NCBI GenBank assembly: GCA_903891325.1
Contig: CAITEC010000042.1
Span: 31,988 to 95,987 of the forward strand
Direction: 5' to 3'
Origin: an uncultured Opitutaceae bacterium
GTDB lineage: Bacteria; Verrucomicrobiota; Verrucomicrobiia; Opitutales; Opitutaceae
Length of the DNA stretch: 64,000 nucleotides
The notes beneath the pieces are model-generated. The model did no database searches, was not told the DNA's origin, and was given only the letters and a program-made list of their open reading frames with translations. Within the stretch, counting starts at the first letter, position 1, and every line of letters starts with the position of its first letter. Made by a program: the position numbers and the translations under genes. This document shows positions 49,267 through 63,809 of this stretch, one piece after another.

Positions 49267-50343
49267 ATGCGGAACCGACGCTCATTCCTCAGGGAGGCGA
49301 TGCTGGCCGCCGCGGGGCTGGCGGTCCTCCCGCGGATCAGCCTGCGCGCCGCCGACAAAACCGGCGCGCGCCCGCCGATCACGGGCTCGGGCGAGCACAC
49401 CTACGAGTGCCTGCATGACTGGCTGCAGCCCCCGGAGGGACTCCTCTGGGGCGAGACGCACGCCCTCTGCGAGGACGAGGAGGGGAACCTCTATGTCGGG
49501 CACACCGTCCACAAGGACAGCCGGCGGGGCGAGGCGATCGTCGCCTACGACGCGCAGGGCCGCTTCATCCGCGCGTTCGGGAGCGAATTTCGCGGGGGGG
49601 CCCACGGGCTGGCGCTGCACCGGGAGCCGGAAGGCGTCTTCCTCTACCACTCCGACATTCTCCACTGCACCACGGCGAAGCTCACGCTGGGCGGGGAACT
49701 GGTCTGGAAGCGCGGCTACCCGCGGGAGGACCGCGAGTACGGGGCGCGCCCGATTGCCTACCGGCCCACGAACATCGCCTTCAGCCCCGGCGGGGATTAC
49801 TTTGTCGCCGACGGCTACGGCTCAAGCCACGTCCTGCGCTACGCCGCCGACGGGCGCTTCCTGGGCGAGGTCGGCCGGCGGCTGGAGGGAAAGTCCGGTC
49901 GCGACGCCCCGGACGGGGCGCTCAGCACGCCGCACAGCCTCTGGGTCGACCTGAGGGGCGCCGCCCCGGTGCTGGCGGTCGCGGATCGGAGCAATCACCG
50001 GATCCAGGCCTTCGGGATGGACGGCGCCCACCGGCTCACCGTCAAGGACCGGAGGCTGCGGCTTCCCTGCCACTGCCACACCCGGGGCGACTGGATGGTC
50101 TGCCCGGATCTTGACAGCCAGGTCTGCATCCTCGACCGCGACTACCGCATCGTCGCCCAGCTCGGCGACGGGAAGCCGCACAACGGGGCATTCGGATCGC
50201 GGCGGACCCAGTCCCGGGCGCAGTTCACGCCCGGCGAATTCATCCACCCGCACGACGCGATTTTCCTGGGGAACGGGGACATCCTCGTCTCCGAGTGGCT
50301 GCCGATCGGCCGCATCACCCGCCTGAGGCGGGTGTCCGGGTGA
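49267..50343 (+). CDS. NHL/6-bladed beta-propeller-like protein with twin-Arg-like N-terminus
   Basis: NRRSFLREAMLAAAGLAVL signal; repeated blade motifs (VAYDAQGRFIRAFG, ADRSNHRIQAFGMDG); GTG at 49249 is an alternative start. Confidence 0.75.
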   Translation: MRNRRSFLREAMLAAAGLAVLPRISLRAADKTGARPPITGSGEHTYECLHDWLQPPEGLLWGETHALCEDEEGNLYVGHTVHKDSRRGEAIVAYDAQGRFIRAFGSEFRGGAHGLALHREPEGVFLYHSDILHCTTAKLTLGGELVWKRGYPREDREYGARPIAYRPTNIAFSPGGDYFVADGYGSSHVLRYAADGRFLGEVGRRLEGKSGRDAPDGALSTPHSLWVDLRGAAPVLAVADRSNHRIQAFGMDGAHRLTVKDRRLRLPCHCHTRGDWMVCPDLDSQVCILDRDYRIVAQLGDGKPHNGAFGSRRTQSRAQFTPGEFIHPHDAIFLGNGDILVSEWLPIGRITRLRRVSG

Positions 50344-52625
50344 GCGCGGCCACCGGCAGCACTCCCCGGCGCCGCGCGGCGTGGATCGGCCTCCCGCCGC
50401 TCGCAGCCCTGGTCGTCCTCGCCCGCCGGCTCCCGCCGGACGGCCGCGACCACGCCCCGCTCGCGCAGTTTTTCGGCCGGTTTCATCCCTCGGTTGTCCA
50501 CTTTCCGATCGCGCTTCTCCTGCTTGTCGCCCTGGTCGAGGTCGCCGGGGCGACGCGCCGGTGGCGCGCGGTTCGCGGCTCCGCGGGATTTGTGCTCTCG
50601 CTTGCGACCGTGGCGGCCTTCGCGGCGGCCATCCTGGGATGGCTGCTCGCCTGGAGCGGAAGCTACCGCGGCGCGCAGGTCACCGACCACATGTGGTGCG
50701 GGATCTGGCTCTGCGCCGCCTGCCTGGCCTGCCTTGTCCTGCGGCGGCGGGGAGACCGCGGCCCGGGCGCGGCCTATGCGCTTGGGCTTGCGGCCACGGT
50801 CGCGCTCACGGCCGTGACCGGGCACCTCGGGGGACGGCTCACCTATGGGGACAATTACCTGACCCAGTACCTTCCCGCCCGGCCGCGGGCGTGGCTCGGG
50901 CTCCCCCCTGCGCGCCCGCCGGCCGCCCCTGCGGCGCCCGCGTCCGGCTCCGGGCCGTCCGCCGCGGGAACTCCCTTCTATGCGGCGGCGATTGCGCCGA
51001 TCCTGCAGGCGCACTGCACCGTCTGCCACGATGCCAACAAGCAGAAGGGAAAGCTGCGGCTGGATACCTACGAGTGGGTGATGAGCGGGGGCGAGGACGG
51101 GCCCGTGGTGCGGCCGGGCGACCCGGGGCACAGCGATCTTTACCGGCGGATCACGCTCCCGGTCGACGACGACGATTTCATGCCCAGCGACGGCAAGCCG
51201 CCGCTGAAGGCCGCCGAGGTGATGCTGATCGCCCACTGGATAACCACAGGCGCCACGGCGATGCGCCCGGACAATTTTGTGCCGGTCGTGGCCGCTCCGA
51301 AGCCGGCGCCGGCCGCGGCGCCGGATTACCGCCCGCTGCTGGCCAGGGCCGGACAGCTTGCCGATTCGCTGGGCGTGGACTTGCTGCCGCGCTCGCAGGA
51401 GCCGACCGACGGGCTCATCCTCCGGGCGACCAGCGCGCCGGGCCGCTGCGGCAACGCGGCGCTCGCGGCCCTCGCACCGGTGGCCGACCTGATCGTCGAG
51501 GCGGAACTCGCCCGGACTCCCGTGACGGACGCCTGCCTGGGCACGCTCGCGGGCTTCCGCAATCTCCAGGCGCTCGACCTCTCCCATACGGCGATTACGT
51601 CCGCGAACCTGGGTGCGCTGGCCCCGCTGCGCCGGCTTGCCAGGCTGAACCTCACCGACACGGGAATCGACGCGGCGGGACTGGCGAAGCTCCGGGCGAT
51701 GCCCGCGCTCCGGCATGTCTACTATTACCAGACGAAGGCCTTTCCCGCGAAGGGCGGCCACGCCGGGAAGGCGGCCGAGGCGCCGGCTGACCGGGCAAGG
51801 GATGAGTTGCGGCGGATCGCGCGGGACGGCAAGGCGTGGGTGAGGGTGCATGCCGCCGAGGTCCTTGTCGCCTACGGGGAGGGGGACGCCATGAGGGCGA
51901 TCTTTGGGCGTGAGGCGCCGACAGCCGCAGCGTCGCCCTACCGGATCGGGACCTGGCGCATCCTCGCGGCGGCTTCCCGGACGCCGCTCGAGCGCGCGGG
52001 CTGGGTCGCGAGGATCGAGGCGGAGGCCCTCGACCCGACCCCCGACCCGAAGGATCCCAACCGGCGGCTTCGCGCCTTCGAGTCGCTGGGCAAGCTCCGC
52101 GTGCGGGTCGACGGGCCGATGCGGGAATCGACGCGGACCTTCGCGGCGGCGGCCGCCCCGATTGACGCCGCGCTTCCCCTGTGGGTCCTCGCCCTGGCGG
52201 GCGACACCGGGGCCCCGGGGCGGCTGGCCGACCTGCTTTCGTCCGCAGACCCGGTCGCACGGCAGCGGGCAGCCTACGCGCTGCGCTGGGTGGGATCGAC
52301 GGACCCGGCAATCCTGGAAAAGCTCCGGCGGGCGGCGGACTCCGAACCGGCGGGAACCGCGGCAAAGCCCTTCATTGCGAGCGCCGCGCTCCTCCTCGCC
52401 CCCGGGGCGCCGCAGGTGCCGGATTGGAGGGCGTGCCTGGAGACCCTGCCCCCGGGAAGCACCGCGGACGCGGCCTTCGAGGCGGCCCAGGCGCTCATGC
52501 CCTACCGAAACGCCGAGGACCTGCGGCGCATGGAGGCGCTCCTCGGCGATCCGGATGACGCGGTCCGGGTGAGCGCGGCCTGGACAATCCTCTACGCGGA
52601 CGCGCACGGCGCGGCGGGCAAGTGA
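50340..52625 (+). CDS. DUF2231 membrane domain + c-type cytochrome (CxxCH) + LRR + HEAT-like multidomain protein
   Basis: FHPSVVHFPIALLL (DUF2231), CTVCHDANKQKGKLRLD, LRR-like NLQALDLSHTAITSANLGALAPL; GTG overlaps previous stop. Confidence 0.8.
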   Translation: MSAATGSTPRRRAAWIGLPPLAALVVLARRLPPDGRDHAPLAQFFGRFHPSVVHFPIALLLLVALVEVAGATRRWRAVRGSAGFVLSLATVAAFAAAILGWLLAWSGSYRGAQVTDHMWCGIWLCAACLACLVLRRRGDRGPGAAYALGLAATVALTAVTGHLGGRLTYGDNYLTQYLPARPRAWLGLPPARPPAAPAAPASGSGPSAAGTPFYAAAIAPILQAHCTVCHDANKQKGKLRLDTYEWVMSGGEDGPVVRPGDPGHSDLYRRITLPVDDDDFMPSDGKPPLKAAEVMLIAHWITTGATAMRPDNFVPVVAAPKPAPAAAPDYRPLLARAGQLADSLGVDLLPRSQEPTDGLILRATSAPGRCGNAALAALAPVADLIVEAELARTPVTDACLGTLAGFRNLQALDLSHTAITSANLGALAPLRRLARLNLTDTGIDAAGLAKLRAMPALRHVYYYQTKAFPAKGGHAGKAAEAPADRARDELRRIARDGKAWVRVHAAEVLVAYGEGDAMRAIFGREAPTAAASPYRIGTWRILAAASRTPLERAGWVARIEAEALDPTPDPKDPNRRLRAFESLGKLRVRVDGPMRESTRTFAAAAAPIDAALPLWVLALAGDTGAPGRLADLLSSADPVARQRAAYALRWVGSTDPAILEKLRRAADSEPAGTAAKPFIASAALLLAPGAPQVPDWRACLETLPPGSTADAAFEAAQALMPYRNAEDLRRMEALLGDPDDAVRVSAAWTILYADAHGAAGK

Positions 52626-52674
52626 CGTATTGTTTCGATGGCGCGACGAAATTCGATCTTCATCCGTGTCCGAA

Positions 52675-52748
52675 GGTGGAGCGCGATCTCCGAGCGCGCT
52701 TGTCCGGCAACTGAGTCAAGCAAGCGCGCTCGGAGATCGCGTTCCACC
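52675..52748. repeat. Family A inverted pair forming a 28-bp-stem hairpin with 18-nt loop
   Basis: ggtggagcgcgatctccgagcgcgcttg (52675-52702) / caagcgcgctcggagatcgcgttccacc (52721-52748), one mismatch. Confidence 0.92.
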
Positions 52749-52765: not shown

Positions 52766-53908
52766 ATGAAAAACCTGCTGCCTTCCCTCGCCCTGCTCGC
52801 CCTCCTCCCCCGGCTCGCGGCCGCGCCGGAGAACCGGATCGTGTGGAACGTCAATGCATCCCCCGAGCACCAGCGCAACACGGAGGGGGCGTTCATCACG
52901 CTGAAATCCGGCCGGATCGCCCTTTACTATTCCCAGTTCGAGAGCGGAAAGGAGGACTACAGCCGGGGAAGCGTCGCGGAGGTCCACTCGGACGACCAGG
53001 GGCTTTCGTGGAGCAGCCCGAGGGTGGTCTTCCCCCACGGCGACTTCCTGAACGCGGGGAGCGTCTCGCTCCTGCGGCTGGCCGACGGGCGGATCGCAAT
53101 CCTCTATGCGGTCAAGAGGAGCAATCTCGACTGCCGGCCCCTCATCCGGTTCTCCGACGATGAGACGGCGACCTGGTCGGAGCCGCGCAACATCATCGAC
53201 GCGCCCGGGTACTTCGTCGTCAACAACGACCGGCTGATCCAGACGCGGAGCGGCCGGCTCATCGTGCCCGCCGCCTTTCACCGGGCGCTCGTCCCGGTCG
53301 ACCGGGGCGCGACGACCGTGGACAGCCGCGCGATCACGCTCTGGTACCTTTCCGACGACGCGGGACGGACCTGGCGGCAGTCCGAGACCTGGTGGTCGAT
53401 CCCGGTGCGCAGCGAGTCCGGCCTGCAGGAACCCGGCGTGGTCGAGCTGGCCGACGGCACCCTCTTTTCCTGGGCGCGCACCGACCGGGGCTGCGAATAC
53501 GCATTTCGCTCGACCGACGGCGGGACGACGTGGAGCGCGCCGGTACCCACCGACCTGAAGTCCCCGCTCTCCCCGGCGAGCATCAAGCGCCTGCCCGGCT
53601 CGGACGCGCTCCTGGCGATCTACGACGACCACTCCGGCCGGTTCCCCTTCGATCCCTCCCGGCGGGCGCCCCTGGTGGCGGCGGTGTCTCGCGACGGCGG
53701 CCGGACGTGGGGGCTGCAGCGCGTCCTTGAGGGAGCCACCATGAACTGGTATTGCTACACCTCGATCCACTTCACCGGCGGGCATGCCCTGCTTGCCTAC
53801 TGGGTGAAGGACGACAAGCTGACGCCCGAGACCATCGCGAAGGGCCGGATGGGCCGGCTGCGGATCCGCCGCGTCGATCCCTCCTGGTTCCTTCAAACCG
53901 AAAAATGA
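52766..53908 (+). CDS. exo-sialidase/BNR-repeat family protein
   Basis: Signal peptide; Asp-box motifs SDDQGLSW, STDGGTTW, SRDGGRTW. Confidence 0.88.
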   Translation: MKNLLPSLALLALLPRLAAAPENRIVWNVNASPEHQRNTEGAFITLKSGRIALYYSQFESGKEDYSRGSVAEVHSDDQGLSWSSPRVVFPHGDFLNAGSVSLLRLADGRIAILYAVKRSNLDCRPLIRFSDDETATWSEPRNIIDAPGYFVVNNDRLIQTRSGRLIVPAAFHRALVPVDRGATTVDSRAITLWYLSDDAGRTWRQSETWWSIPVRSESGLQEPGVVELADGTLFSWARTDRGCEYAFRSTDGGTTWSAPVPTDLKSPLSPASIKRLPGSDALLAIYDDHSGRFPFDPSRRAPLVAAVSRDGGRTWGLQRVLEGATMNWYCYTSIHFTGGHALLAYWVKDDKLTPETIAKGRMGRLRIRRVDPSWFLQTEK

Positions 53909-54153
53909 ATAAAGACCAGACAATCGAGGAGGTGATCGCGATCCTCCGGCAGGTTAACGACGGCAATCCGGCGGCCATCGGCCCCGGGACGCTCATCCTG
54001 ACCGAGCTCGACCTCGATTCGCTGAAGATGATCGAGCTCATGGACGCCCTGAAGGCGAAGTACGGGGTCGATTTTTCCGCACCGCCCCGGACGCTGGGCG
54101 AGCTGCGCTCCCCCGAGACGATCGCCGCCGCGCTTCTCCGCGCGCGCGGCTGA
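53905..54153 (+). CDS. acyl carrier protein-like
   Basis: 82 aa; LTELDLDSLKMIELMDALKAKYGVDF carrier-protein DSL motif; ATG overlaps sialidase stop. Confidence 0.85.
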   Translation: MNKDQTIEEVIAILRQVNDGNPAAIGPGTLILTELDLDSLKMIELMDALKAKYGVDFSAPPRTLGELRSPETIAAALLRARG

Positions 54154-54159
54154 CAATCC

Positions 54160-55434
54160 GTGGATCTGGAAGAGAGTCATCCCGGGCTTGCCGCGCAGCT
54201 TCGCTTTGTCGTCGCGGAGAGCCCCTATTACCGCAGCCGCGGCGCGGACCCCCGCGACCTCGCGACCTTCCCCGTCCTCACCAAGGCGATGGTGCGCGGC
54301 GGCACGCGGGAAATGCTCACGTCGAGGACGGAGGCGGAGCGCGACGCGCTGGCCGCCGAGCTCCTGCGCACGGACCTGTCCGCCGAGCGGAACCGCGCCG
54401 GCGAGTTCCGGTTCGGCGCGGATGTGGTCATCGACCAGACGACGGGCACCTCGGGGATCCCCGCGCGATTCCCGAAGACGGGCGCCGAGCGGACCGAGCT
54501 GGCGCTGGCCACGTTCATGCGGCGGCGGGGCTTCGATCCCGGGCTCCGGCCCGCCGAGTTCGTCCCGCTCCTCCACCACCGGTGGGACCAGAGCTTCGAT
54601 TTCGACATCTGGAGCCGGTCCGTGGACGACCTGCGGCGGATGTACGCCTGGCTGGCGGGGAAGCGCGCCCGTTGGATCCACATGCCCGCCGTCCTGATCG
54701 CGCGGCACGCGGCGGCACTGGAGGAGGCGGGAATCGCCGACCCGGTTCCCAGCCTCAAATTCATCGAGTCGACCGGCTCGCGGCTCACCCCGGAGGCGGT
54801 CGCCGCGGCGCGGCGCGTCTTCCATGCCGGGACGGTCAACCAATACGGGACAATTGAGATGTGGGTGATCGGCTACGCGGCCGGGACGGGCCCCTTCGCG
54901 ATCAACGACGCCGCCGTCCATGTGGAGCTGGTCGACGACGACGAGCGGCCGATCGACGCGCCGGGGATCGAGGGGGACGTCGTGGTGACCAGCCTCGTCC
55001 TGCGGCTGCTGCCGCTTGTCCGGTACCGGACGGGAGACCGCGGCGCCTGGGTGGACGAGCCCGGCGCCGGGGGCGGTCCGGCCCGCCGGCTGGCGCTCGC
55101 CGAGGAACGCGACGTCAACAAGCTCACCATCGACGGCCGGCGGATCTCCGGGACGGAGGCATTCCGGCCGATCCTGAGGAGGGTCTACGCGCGGGTCGGC
55201 TACGCAGGAGTCGAGGCCGTGCAGATCACGCAGGTCGGGCCGGAGACGATCCGCCTTTCGCTGAACCGCTCACCGCAGGCCGGGGACATCTGCAGGGCCT
55301 TCCACGAGGAGTGCCTGAAGCTGCGCGCCGGGATCGCGGTTGAGTTCGACCTGCGCGAGGCGGACGACCGGTCCTTCCTGGACCGGAAGGGAAACCTCTT
55401 TGTCAACCGCTGGGGCTCCCCCGGAAAGCCGTGA
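54160..55434 (+). CDS. CapK/PaaK-like AMP-forming ligase
   Basis: GTG start; DQTTGTSGIPARFPKT, NQYGTIEMWVIGY, PLVRYRTGDRG adenylation motifs. Confidence 0.82.
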   Translation: MDLEESHPGLAAQLRFVVAESPYYRSRGADPRDLATFPVLTKAMVRGGTREMLTSRTEAERDALAAELLRTDLSAERNRAGEFRFGADVVIDQTTGTSGIPARFPKTGAERTELALATFMRRRGFDPGLRPAEFVPLLHHRWDQSFDFDIWSRSVDDLRRMYAWLAGKRARWIHMPAVLIARHAAALEEAGIADPVPSLKFIESTGSRLTPEAVAAARRVFHAGTVNQYGTIEMWVIGYAAGTGPFAINDAAVHVELVDDDERPIDAPGIEGDVVVTSLVLRLLPLVRYRTGDRGAWVDEPGAGGGPARRLALAEERDVNKLTIDGRRISGTEAFRPILRRVYARVGYAGVEAVQITQVGPETIRLSLNRSPQAGDICRAFHEECLKLRAGIAVEFDLREADDRSFLDRKGNLFVNRWGSPGKP

Positions 55435-56588
55435 ATCCGCTCTCCCACCTGGGCGCCTACGCGCACCTGCTCCGTTCCCGCATCCCGGGCGCGCGCGGCC
55501 CGGCGGGGGCCGCGTCGATCCGCCTGCCTTTCAACGGGAGCCCGACAGTGGCCACCTTCCTGCACACCGGCTTTTTCCTGGGGATTTTGACCGCGGACGG
55601 GCCCTGCGACGGGCTCCTCAACATCTACCTCCAGCTCAGTGCGCCGCGCCGGCGGACGGATTTCGTGAATGTGCTGCCCCTGCGCTTCCTCCCGACGATC
55701 CCCCCGGACCTCCTCGGGCTCACCGAGTCGAGGGACTGGTCGGCGGCGGAGATCGCCCGGATCGGGAAGGGGGGCCTCGCCGGCGAGGTGATCGGCGCGA
55801 TGCGCGGGGGCGAGTTCCTGTACGCGAACATCGACTACTTTTACCTGCCCGGTTCCGCGTTTTACGCCCGGCGCCACTTTCGCCAGTCGGCGCTGGTCGT
55901 CGGATTCGACGCGGGGGCGGGGGAGTTCACGATCGCCTGCTACCTGAAGAGCGGGCTCTTCGGGCTGGCGCGGATGCCGTGGCGCCTCCTGGGCGAGGCC
56001 TTCCACTCGCCGCTCGGCCGCGCTCGCTGCTCGGAGGCCTCGAAGGCGGACCGGCTCAACGGGATCAGGCGACCGGCGGTCGCCGGGCCGCACGCCGGCC
56101 TGGACCTGGACGCGATCAGGTGGCAGCTCGCCGACTATCTGAACGCGACCAACGAGGCGCCGCGGCGGATGGCGAACGGGGCGATCCGCGAATGGTGCGC
56201 CCGCCACGACACGTCCACGGCGGCCGACACCTATTATGGGAGCGGGATCCACGAGGGCCTGATCGCGACGCTGAACGCGACCGATCCAGCCGCGCCCGGG
56301 ACGTTCGACTTCCGGATCACCCGGCTGGTCTGGGAGCACAAGAAGATGATGACCCTGCGCCTGCGCCGGCTTTCGGAAACCGGGGCGATCGCAATCCCCG
56401 GCCTGGACGCCCGCTGGGCCGAGGTGGAGCAGGCGGCCTGGTCGCTGCACTTCACGCTCGTGCGCTCCGCCTCGAAGCGGGAGCGGATCGACAGGGAATC
56501 TGTCGTCCGCTCGGTGAACGACATGGCCGCGCTCGAACGGACCATTCTCGGGGAGGTGCTGGAATCTTTGCAGAAACCTGAGACCTGA
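55431..56588 (+). CDS. uncharacterised protein, possibly BtrH/C39-like
   Basis: 385 aa; GTG overlaps ligase stop (GTGA); GGEFLYANIDYFYLPGSAFYARRHFRQSALVVGFDAGAGEFTIACYL resembles the C39/BtrH-type core by eye only. Confidence 0.6.
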   Translation: MNPLSHLGAYAHLLRSRIPGARGPAGAASIRLPFNGSPTVATFLHTGFFLGILTADGPCDGLLNIYLQLSAPRRRTDFVNVLPLRFLPTIPPDLLGLTESRDWSAAEIARIGKGGLAGEVIGAMRGGEFLYANIDYFYLPGSAFYARRHFRQSALVVGFDAGAGEFTIACYLKSGLFGLARMPWRLLGEAFHSPLGRARCSEASKADRLNGIRRPAVAGPHAGLDLDAIRWQLADYLNATNEAPRRMANGAIREWCARHDTSTAADTYYGSGIHEGLIATLNATDPAAPGTFDFRITRLVWEHKKMMTLRLRRLSETGAIAIPGLDARWAEVEQAAWSLHFTLVRSASKRERIDRESVVRSVNDMAALERTILGEVLESLQKPET

Positions 56589-56604: not shown

Positions 56605-59310
56605 TCAGCCCAGCGCGGGTTCGGCGACGCCGATTTTTTCTATCGCCACCGCCGTCACCTTGTATTCCGGGGTCTTCGTGTACCGGTCGCGATGGGAGGT
56701 GGTGATCTGGTTGAGGAAGACGCGGGTGTTGTGGAAGGTCGTGTAGACCTCGCCGGGCTTGATCGTGTCGGTGATCCGGACGTGGAGCTCCGCGGAGCCC
56801 TGCTTGCTCCTGAGCCGGACGAGCTCGCCCTCGGCCAGCCCAAGCCGGTTCGCGTCGGGCGCGGAGACCTGGAGGAAATCGGTCGGGTGAAGCGAGTCGT
56901 TGGGCGTGCGCGAGGTCTGGGTGGCGGCGTTGTACTGGTACAGGTTCCGACCGGTGATCAGGATCAGCGGGAACTCGGCGCTCCTCAGCTCCGGGGGCGG
57001 CACGAACTCGATCCGGCGAAGCGCCGTGGTCTTCCCGTGCGTGAAGGCGTCCACGTGCAGGATCGGCGTGCCCGGGTCGTTCTCGTCGAGGCAGGGCCAC
57101 TGGAGCCCCCCGAGCTTGTCGAGCCGGGCGTAGCTGATCCCCGCGCCCTCCGGCCAGAGGGAGCGCACCTCGTCCCAGATCTGCTCGGCGGAGCGGTAGC
57201 CGAACTCGGCGCCCTTTCCCATGGCGCGGGCCACGTCGCAGAGCGGCTCCCAGTCGTTGCGCGCCTCGCCCTGCGGGGCGGCGGCGCCGCGCACGCGCTG
57301 GAGCCTGCGCTCGCCGTTCATGAACGTGCCGTCCTTCTCGAAGGAGGCTGCGGCCGGAAGGAAGATGTGCCCGAACTCCCGGGCGGCCGCGTTCATGAAG
57401 AGGTCCTGGACGATCACCAGGTCGAGCTCCTTCATCGCGCGCCGCGTCTCGTGGGTGTTGGGATTGGTCATCACGATGTCGTAGCCGATCGCCCACATGA
57501 CCTTCAGCTTCCCGGCCAGCGCGGACTCGAGCATCTCGATCATGTTCAGCCCCGGGTTCCGGGGGATGGGACCGTGCCACGCCGCCTCGAACTGGTCGCG
57601 GACCTTCTCGATCGGCACGTAGCCGGCCATCAGCTTCGGCTCGCAGCCCATGTGCGGCGCGCCCTGCACGTTGTTCTGCCCGCGGAGCGGGTTGATCCCG
57701 GTGCCCGGCTTGCCGATGTTGCCGGTGAGCAGCGCGAGGTTCACCAGGGCCATGATCCCCTCCGTGCCCTGGATGTGCTCGGTCATGCCCAGCCCGTGGA
57801 CGCTCAGCGAGGGCTTGGCCGTCGCGTAGAGGCGGGCGGCCTGCCGGATCTTCGCGGCCGGGACCCCGCAGATCGCCTCGGCCTTCTCGGGCGAAAAATC
57901 GCGGACAAAGTCGCGGTACTCCGCGTACTCGGTGATGCGCGTGCGCAGGAACTCCTCATCCACCAGCCCTTCCTCGACAATCGCCGCGCCCATGGCGTTG
58001 AAGAGCACGACGTTTGTGCCGGCCTTGAGCTGGAGGTGGAGCGTGGCGTACTGCGTGAGCTCGATCTCGCGCGGATCCACGACGATCAGGGCGGCCCCGT
58101 GCAGGGCGGCCTGCTTGATCCGCGCCCCGGTGACCGGGTGCCCCTCGGTCGGGTTGGCCCCGCACACGAGGATCGTCTTCGCCAGCTCGATCTCGTCGAG
58201 GGAGTTGGTGGCGGCGCCGGTGCCCAGGGTCATCTTCATCGCGGCGGCGGTCGGCGAGTGGCAGACCCGCGCGCAGCAGTCGATGTTGTTCGTGCCCAGG
58301 ACGACGCGCGCGAATTTCTGGGCGACGTAGTTCTCCTCGTTGGTGCCGCGGGCGGAGCTGAGGATGCCGATGCTGTCCGGGCCGTGGCGCGCGGCGGTCT
58401 CCGCCAGGCGGGTGGCGATGGTCGCGATCGCCTCATCCCAGCTGACGCGCTGCCACTCCCCGTTGCGCCGGACCATCGGCGAGGTGACGCGCTCCTTCGC
58501 ATAGACGTAGTCAAAGGCGTAGCGGCCCTTCACGCAGGTGTGCCCGTGGTTGCTGGGTCCGCCGGGAGAGGGCCGGATCGTCGTGATCTGGCCCTCGCGC
58601 GTGCCGACGTCCACCTCGCAGCCGGTCCCGCAGTACGAGCAGATGGTCTTTGTCCAGGTGTCGGGCATGCCCCGGGCCAGGACGGTGATGTCCTCGAGGG
58701 CGCCGGATGGGCAGGTGTCCACGCAGGCTCCGCAGCTCACGCAGCCGCCGTCGAGCAGGGTCTCGCCGCGCACCGGGAGGATGCGGGTCTCCCCGCCGCG
58801 GTTCCACGCCTTCCACACGAACTGCCCCTGGACCTCCTCGCAGATCCGCACGCAGCGGTAGCAGGTGACGCACTGCGACATGTCGACATTGATGTAGGGG
58901 TGCGTGACGTCCCTCATGTACGGCTCCCCGGGGCGGGACCTCGCCCGCGTGCCGCCCGCCGTCACTCCGTACTCGCGCAGGTAGCGGTGGAATTCCTTCC
59001 CGGGAAACTCCTCGACGGCCTCCGCCGGGTAGTCGGCGGCCAGCAGGCCGAGCAGGGTCTTGCGCACGCCGCGGACCTCCGGGGAGTCGGTCTGGATCTC
59101 CATGCCGTCGCGCAGCGGCGTGTTGCAGGCGGTCGCCAGCGCGCTCATCCCCTTGACCTCCACGGTGCAAAGCCGGCACGAGCCGTAGGGCTTGATCCGG
59201 TCGTCGTTGCACAGGGTGGGGACCGTTATCCCCGCGATGCGGAGCGCCTGGTTGATCGTGAGCCCTTCCGGGTAGCTGCCCGGCGTGCCGTTGATGATTA
59301 CTTGAAGCAT
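56605..59310 (-). CDS. formate dehydrogenase subunit alpha (Mo/W-bisMGD, Fe-S)
   Basis: N-terminal 2Fe-2S/4Fe-4S motifs, ICSYCGTGCEVD, CCARVCHSPT (Cys at catalytic position), GAATNSLDEIE; ATG at 59310. Confidence 0.93.
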   Translation of the reverse strand: MLQVIINGTPGSYPEGLTINQALRIAGITVPTLCNDDRIKPYGSCRLCTVEVKGMSALATACNTPLRDGMEIQTDSPEVRGVRKTLLGLLAADYPAEAVEEFPGKEFHRYLREYGVTAGGTRARSRPGEPYMRDVTHPYINVDMSQCVTCYRCVRICEEVQGQFVWKAWNRGGETRILPVRGETLLDGGCVSCGACVDTCPSGALEDITVLARGMPDTWTKTICSYCGTGCEVDVGTREGQITTIRPSPGGPSNHGHTCVKGRYAFDYVYAKERVTSPMVRRNGEWQRVSWDEAIATIATRLAETAARHGPDSIGILSSARGTNEENYVAQKFARVVLGTNNIDCCARVCHSPTAAAMKMTLGTGAATNSLDEIELAKTILVCGANPTEGHPVTGARIKQAALHGAALIVVDPREIELTQYATLHLQLKAGTNVVLFNAMGAAIVEEGLVDEEFLRTRITEYAEYRDFVRDFSPEKAEAICGVPAAKIRQAARLYATAKPSLSVHGLGMTEHIQGTEGIMALVNLALLTGNIGKPGTGINPLRGQNNVQGAPHMGCEPKLMAGYVPIEKVRDQFEAAWHGPIPRNPGLNMIEMLESALAGKLKVMWAIGYDIVMTNPNTHETRRAMKELDLVIVQDLFMNAAAREFGHIFLPAAASFEKDGTFMNGERRLQRVRGAAAPQGEARNDWEPLCDVARAMGKGAEFGYRSAEQIWDEVRSLWPEGAGISYARLDKLGGLQWPCLDENDPGTPILHVDAFTHGKTTALRRIEFVPPPELRSAEFPLILITGRNLYQYNAATQTSRTPNDSLHPTDFLQVSAPDANRLGLAEGELVRLRSKQGSAELHVRITDTIKPGEVYTTFHNTRVFLNQITTSHRDRYTKTPEYKVTAVAIEKIGVAEPALG

Positions 59311-63671: not shown

Positions 63672-63791
63672 TGTAGCCGGGGTCCCAGACCCCGGACCGG
63701 CCTCCCGTCTCCACTGCGTTCCGCTGGGCAAGCTCCTGGGCCGGGGATTGGGATAGGACCCCAAGCACCGGGGTCTGGGACCCCGGCTACA
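63672..63791. repeat. Family B inverted pair
   Basis: tgtagccggggtcccagaccccgg (63672-63695) and exact reverse complement ccggggtctgggaccccggctaca (63768-63791). Confidence 0.92.
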
Positions 63792-63809
63792 TTCGATCCA
63801 ATGCGCCGC

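Follow-up and report, generated by a model that had tools for sequence, protein, structure and literature searches.

What does a protein that matches no named family do when its gene closes a tightly packed run behind the genes for a carrier protein and an AMP-forming ligase? The question is raised by a locus in the draft genome (3.29 Mb) of an uncultured Opitutaceae bacterium, lying within a stretch of 64,000 nucleotides that was analysed as a whole and is called the window here. A sequence-only reading had described four open reading frames at this locus, encoding a sialidase, an acyl carrier protein (ACP), a CapK-like ligase and a fourth protein (protein 4), as one translationally coupled unit. 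According to that proposal, the ligase would load an acyl or aminoacyl group onto the ACP and protein 4 would transfer it, perhaps to a glycan handled by the sialidase. When the ORF coordinates were rechecked, the four frames, their starts, the 6-bp gap and both overlaps (ATGA and GTGA) were found exactly as claimed (Table 1).

Table 1. Features of the locus, in window coordinates.
Feature	Position	Strand	Remark
Sialidase ORF	52766-53908	+	overlaps the ACP start by ATGA at 53905-53908
Acyl/peptidyl carrier protein (ACP), 82 aa	53905-54153	+	PF00550 26.1 bits, above cut-off
PaaK/CapK-type AMP-forming ligase, divergent, 424 aa, GTG start	54160-55434	+	6 bp after the ACP stop
Protein 4, 385 aa, GTG start	55431-56588	+	GTGA overlap with the ligase at 55431-55434
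His-region of protein 4 (RRHFRQSALVVGFD...F...CY)	55863-55946	+	alignment of ten members
Terminator-like hairpin with T run	56621-56633	+	directly 3′ of protein 4; weak

No sigma-70-like promoter site was found inside the four-ORF block, and the hairpin that follows protein 4 is the probable end of the operon; terminator-like hairpins did not exceed their shuffled expectation, with one found against 1.7 expected by chance. The frames for the ACP, the ligase and protein 4 are all intact and their GC3 is uniform and host-like (0.87-0.91), and there is therefore no compositional sign of recent import. When the locus was compared with the sister genome G012 in search of an empty site, no clean insertion site was visible, because G012 shares only the formate dehydrogenase side of the locus (80% identity). 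The co-conservation of all four genes in related genomes that the earlier proposal called for was looked for and not seen, so that its four-gene version fails, and the combination of ACP, ligase and protein 4 occurred in no other genome searched.

The ACP profile match lies above the curated cut-off (20.8 bits; E 1e-5) and the phosphopantetheine serine is found in LDLDSLKMIE, in agreement with the DSL attachment site noted from the letters. The genome of the window holds six carrier-protein matches, this ACP being one of them, and one phosphopantetheinyl transferase. The AMP-forming motifs reported for the ligase (TTGTSG, YGTIE and RYRTGD) were confirmed as a P-loop TTGTSGIP, an A5 motif QYGTIE and an A7 motif RYRTGD, and the protein keeps the columns G96, G99, P101, Y229, E233, D293 and R317 with PaaK-like ligases. 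Its profile matches all fall under their cut-offs: among NCBIfam models DVU_1553 gave 59.7 bits (cut-off 300) and FlxY 35 bits, while Pfam AMP-binding gave 12.6 bits against a cut-off of 29.9. Among PDB sequences it matched phenylacetate-CoA ligases with E 0.01. No ortholog of the ligase was found in 189 relatives or in 319 genomes of the phylum (~500 genomes scanned), and its own genome contains no second relative of either the ligase or protein 4. Judged by its sequence, the ligase is a divergent, predicted adenylating enzyme of the PaaK/CapK type that stands outside every named subfamily cut-off.

Protein 4 itself has no Pfam match and matches NCBIfam at chance level only, and these searches agree with the earlier statement that it has no nameable family of its own. 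Three other genomes of the same family (Opitutaceae) contain relatives, as does Paenibacillus, whereas protein 4 and the ligase are both absent from the sampled same-genus genomes. A peptide-pattern search of GTDB and viral contigs for the ligase and protein 4 gave no match for the window proteins; with another query it returned one Paenibacillus relative. One candidate relative (L020:10162-11091) was rejected, as it showed a sub-threshold KAS III match only. Profile searches of ten members of the protein 4 family found BtrH_N in five (best 1.9e-6) and Peptidase_C39_2 in four, and one relative matches DarH, a BtrH-related acyltransferase. Where bit scores are shown, the relatives reach 22.3-22.4 bits against BtrH_N (PF14399), under its curated cut-off of 29.7 bits and over the second half of the profile only. 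Protein 4, its profiles and individual relatives, used as queries against PDB sequences, gave no credible match, and a profile-profile comparison with two true BtrH_N proteins was too weak to stand alone (E 0.007, probability 5%).

Two AlphaFold models were made, one of protein 4 and one of the Paenibacillus relative, each from a two-row alignment and each of low confidence (mean pLDDT 45.6 and 49.0). In Foldseek, 16 of the 18 top PDB matches of the protein 4 model were entries for CcbD or CtaG, with AziU2-U3 making up the remaining two; for the model of the Paenibacillus relative the top nine matches were all CtaG/CcbD (probability up to 0.97), with TM-scores in these searches of ~0.2. A viral fold library yielded no coherent family match and an anti-phage defence library yielded none. 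These models, together with the profile matches of the relatives, make it likely that protein 4 has a CtaG/CcbD/BtrH-like papain fold with a C-terminal helical domain; the assignment is likely rather than proven because no Foldseek E fell below 0.001. The resemblance to C39/BtrH-type cores that had been noticed by eye is thereby upheld, since the RRHFRQSALVVGFD segment aligns to the His-region of C39/BtrH proteins, and the relatives and the weak models agree.

The columns of the CtaG triad (Cys11-His128-Asp144, inferred from the variant titles of PDB entries) are occupied by T/Q/C in the window protein. Across the ten members the nucleophile column holds Thr (six), Ser (two) or Gly (two) and never Cys, and in none of them does a Cys lie 110-117 residues ahead of the His column. 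For comparison, Cys and His are 112 residues apart in CcbD, 117 in CtaG and 113 in a true BtrH_N protein from a related genome (C15/H128). The His column is His in nine of the ten members and Gln152 in the window protein, which supports the suspected replacement of the catalytic His by Gln, although a one-base consensus error is a possible reading of Q152. The acid column (170) is Cys170 in the window protein, and Asp is found there only in two Paenibacillus members. The loss of the Cys, and mostly of the acid residue, thus extends to the whole family, a point missed by the sequence-only reading, and therefore a plain BtrH mechanism should not be assumed. Because the window protein has in addition Gln in place of His and Cys in the Asp column, its catalysis may be lost. 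Other polar positions are retained: K304 and E369 are invariant, D293 and H303 are present in nine of ten members and position 295 is R/K, and the C-terminal helical domain carries a DxR...WEHK motif. Judged from these columns, the protein 4 family may use a Ser/Thr nucleophile or a moved active site, or may have a non-catalytic role.

The neighbourhoods of the relatives bear on their substrates. One relative starts 61 bp after an NRPS gene that ends in a T domain (L009, G020:C220), another lies ~4.7 kb downstream of a PKS that ends in KR-ACP within a PKS/NRPS locus (L011), and a third stands beside a Paenibacillus NRPS (L021); the final NRPS gene of Paenibacillus sp. 37 likewise terminates with a T domain. 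No thioesterase match was found in any of the three terminal synthases of multimodular NRPS/PKS clusters beside relatives, which suggests that acyl transfer or release may take place in trans. In P. cellulosilyticus (L020) the relative is the last gene of an operon that also encodes an adenylating enzyme, a PLP decarboxylase, a carrier protein and a methyltransferase. A carrier gene is absent nearby at three of the eight relative-bearing loci (L008, L010, L028), and the family genomes with relatives have 18-23 carrier matches each. Taken together, this context indicates that the relatives probably work on carrier-bound chains, by transfer or by release.

Several of the surveyed loci have features of their own. 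The first 20 kb of L009 (1-20000, G020:C220) form a large NRPS cluster with two relatives of protein 4, an ABC exporter, a GT64-like glycosyltransferase and several sulfotransferases, and its gene content makes a sulfated or glycosylated peptide pathway possible. At L008 14995-17504 (G044:C282) a pair of relatives stands in tandem; the stretch contains no carrier gene, and the genome has 23 carrier-domain matches elsewhere. True BtrH_N proteins with Cys and His intact are encoded in genomes of the same family (L023 937-1935 and L025 1183-2475); the gene in L023 adjoins a KAS III-like gene, and this neighbour suggests clusters of the aryl-polyene/flexirubin type.

We consider the chances about even that the ACP, the ligase and protein 4 constitute a minimal stand-alone thiotemplate module, in which protein 4 moves or releases the acyl group without the canonical triad. 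Here, the ligase would adenylate a carboxylic or amino acid and load it onto the phosphopantetheine arm of the ACP, following the chemistry of its family. Protein 4 would then bind the acyl-ACP and either release the acyl group or pass it to an acceptor, an amine or a hydroxyl. The flow from ligase to ACP to protein 4, as first proposed, is likely in the light of the protein families, the gene layout and the carrier context of the relatives. Transfer in the protein 4 family would proceed without a Cys-His-Asp(Glu) ping-pong triad, and might instead use direct aminolysis in the binding site, a Ser/Thr at the nucleophile column, or the polar residues D293, R295, H303 and K304 of the helical domain. 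More specifically, the family could be a triad-less branch of CtaG/CcbD/BtrH that still performs transfer or release in trans, for thioesterase-less assembly lines and here for a mini-pathway of one ligase and one carrier, through another active site, for which Thr42, Asp293, Arg295, His303 and Lys304 are candidates. This extended version is put forward tentatively, as possible rather than probable.

It is also conceivable, if doubtful, that protein 4 has no catalytic activity and is a pseudoenzyme: with its papain fold it would serve as a scaffold or gatekeeper, binding acyl-ACP or passing it on to an unlinked enzyme or exporter. Cargo binding by C39-like domains that lack the Cys is known from some ABC exporters, and one of the copies in L009 follows immediately after an ABC exporter gene; the loss of Cys, His and Asp together in the window protein, and of the Cys in all ten members, fits such a role. 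However, the invariant K304 and E369, with D293, H303 and the His at position 152 each kept in nine of ten members, suggest a working site in the family, and the thioesterase-less assembly lines beside relatives need a release step.

We regard it as unlikely that protein 4, rather than transferring an acyl group, catalyses a different reaction on a carrier-bound substrate, such as a ring closure like that of AziU2-U3. AziU2-U3 does rank high among the Foldseek matches of protein 4, and sulfotransferase genes surround the relatives in L009, but the window module contains no sulfotransferase and AziU2-U3 lies outside the best 50 matches of the model of the Paenibacillus relative. Decay of the module, by which it would be the fragment of a formerly larger pathway with protein 4 already inactive, appears very unlikely: the lost active-site residues, a genome with only six carrier-protein matches and without further relatives of the ligase or protein 4, and the absence of both proteins from the sampled same-genus genomes would agree with it, whereas three intact frames of host-like GC3 and the preserved start/stop overlaps would not.

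The place of the sialidase gene was judged from its own relatives. Its product is a BNR protein by its BNR/Asp-box repeats (BNR_2 105.8 bits, cut-off 31.4, 3.3e-30; BNR 32.2 bits, cut-off 27) and is predicted to be sialidase-like; the N-terminus is leader-like and the protein is probably exported. An exported glycan enzyme would thus act in a different compartment from the ATP-using ligase and the ACP, which are expected in the cytoplasm. Homologues with 54-59% identity occur at one more place in the same genome (G000:C78) and at four places in the same-genus genome G012, and at none of these places do the ACP, the ligase or protein 4 lie beside them; a third match in the window's own genome (38%) is on C48. 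In G012:C23 (L036 9881-12214) a sialidase-like domain is fused in frame to a HEAT domain, and this domain is part of the planctomycete-type cytochrome protein that is encoded upstream of the sialidase here (window 50295-52625). The fusion, and the homologues without the other three genes, therefore place the sialidase with surroundings of the cytochrome/HEAT/DUF1501 type, and it is probably a neighbour of the carrier module rather than a part of it. The layout of the four-gene coupled unit holds, while the membership of the sialidase probably does not, as it does not travel with the other three genes; homologues without these genes, HEAT fusion and leader-like N-terminus argue against it as a component. 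That the four genes place an acyl group on a glycan handled by the BNR protein, a reading for which the ATGA overlap of sialidase and ACP speaks, is highly improbable and largely refuted by the homologues at G000:C78 and the four G012 places that lack the other genes, by the HEAT fusion in G012:C23, and by a leader-like N-terminus that implies export, the ACP and the ligase being expected in the cytoplasm.

The gap that separates the cytochrome/HEAT gene from the sialidase contains a palindrome (window 52669-52748; 29-bp stem, z-score -10.9). Near-identical copies of it stand at many sites on other contigs, frequently at their ends, and they form a REP/MITE-like repeat family in this genome. 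A second repeat of ~120 bp (window 63672-63792) has copies of 84-90% identity on three other contigs.

The structures of CtaG/CcbD/BtrH enzymes, an alternative to NRPS condensation domains, have been solved recently. Triad-less relatives next to assembly lines with no terminal thioesterase raise the question of how products are released there, and also whether transfer within a papain-type fold can do without a covalent cysteine intermediate. The window module, with its ACP, ligase and one transferase, is small enough for work in vitro.

With the AMP-forming ligases of the PaaK/CapK/FlxY group the window ligase has motifs and partial profile matches in common, but it reaches no named family cut-off and has no close relative in the ~500 genomes. 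In the closthioamide pathway, CtaI is predicted to load the carrier protein CtaH, from which CtaG is proposed to transfer the acid (PMC6772006). This combination of a ligase, a stand-alone carrier and a fold-related transferase follows the plan proposed for the window module, and the low-confidence model of the Paenibacillus relative matches the CtaG structure best; in contrast, the CtaG triad stands against T/Q/C in the window, and no second carrier, ATP-grasp or thioamide genes lie beside the module. CcbD forms an amide on a carrier protein through a Cys-His-Glu ping-pong triad (PMC12945683). The lincosamide enzymes CcbD/LmbD with the CcbZ carrier thus offer a carrier-protein-dependent, amide-forming papain-fold enzyme, and CcbD is the top Foldseek match of protein 4, from which its triad is absent. 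BtrH-type papain-fold transacylases acting on ACP were proposed from context analysis (PMC2922099); butirosin BtrH, with the BtrI ACP and the BtrJ ligase, and DarH of dialkylresorcinol/flexirubin clusters, which is grouped with it, have the ACP-dependent acyl transfer and the papain-like fold that are predicted for protein 4, and the BtrH_N profile matches relatives of protein 4 but not protein 4 itself. AziU2-U3, an aziridine synthase that acts by sulfate displacement (PMC12559475), is a top-five structural match of protein 4, yet it is a heteromeric complex of different chemistry and the window module lacks a sulfotransferase. As its sequence reads, protein 4 lacks the catalytic residues by which CtaG, CcbD and BtrH are recognized, and we do not file it as a member. 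The plan proposed for the module is already known from CtaI-CtaH-CtaG and from CcbD with its carrier; what is new here is the loss of the usual catalytic residues in protein 4.
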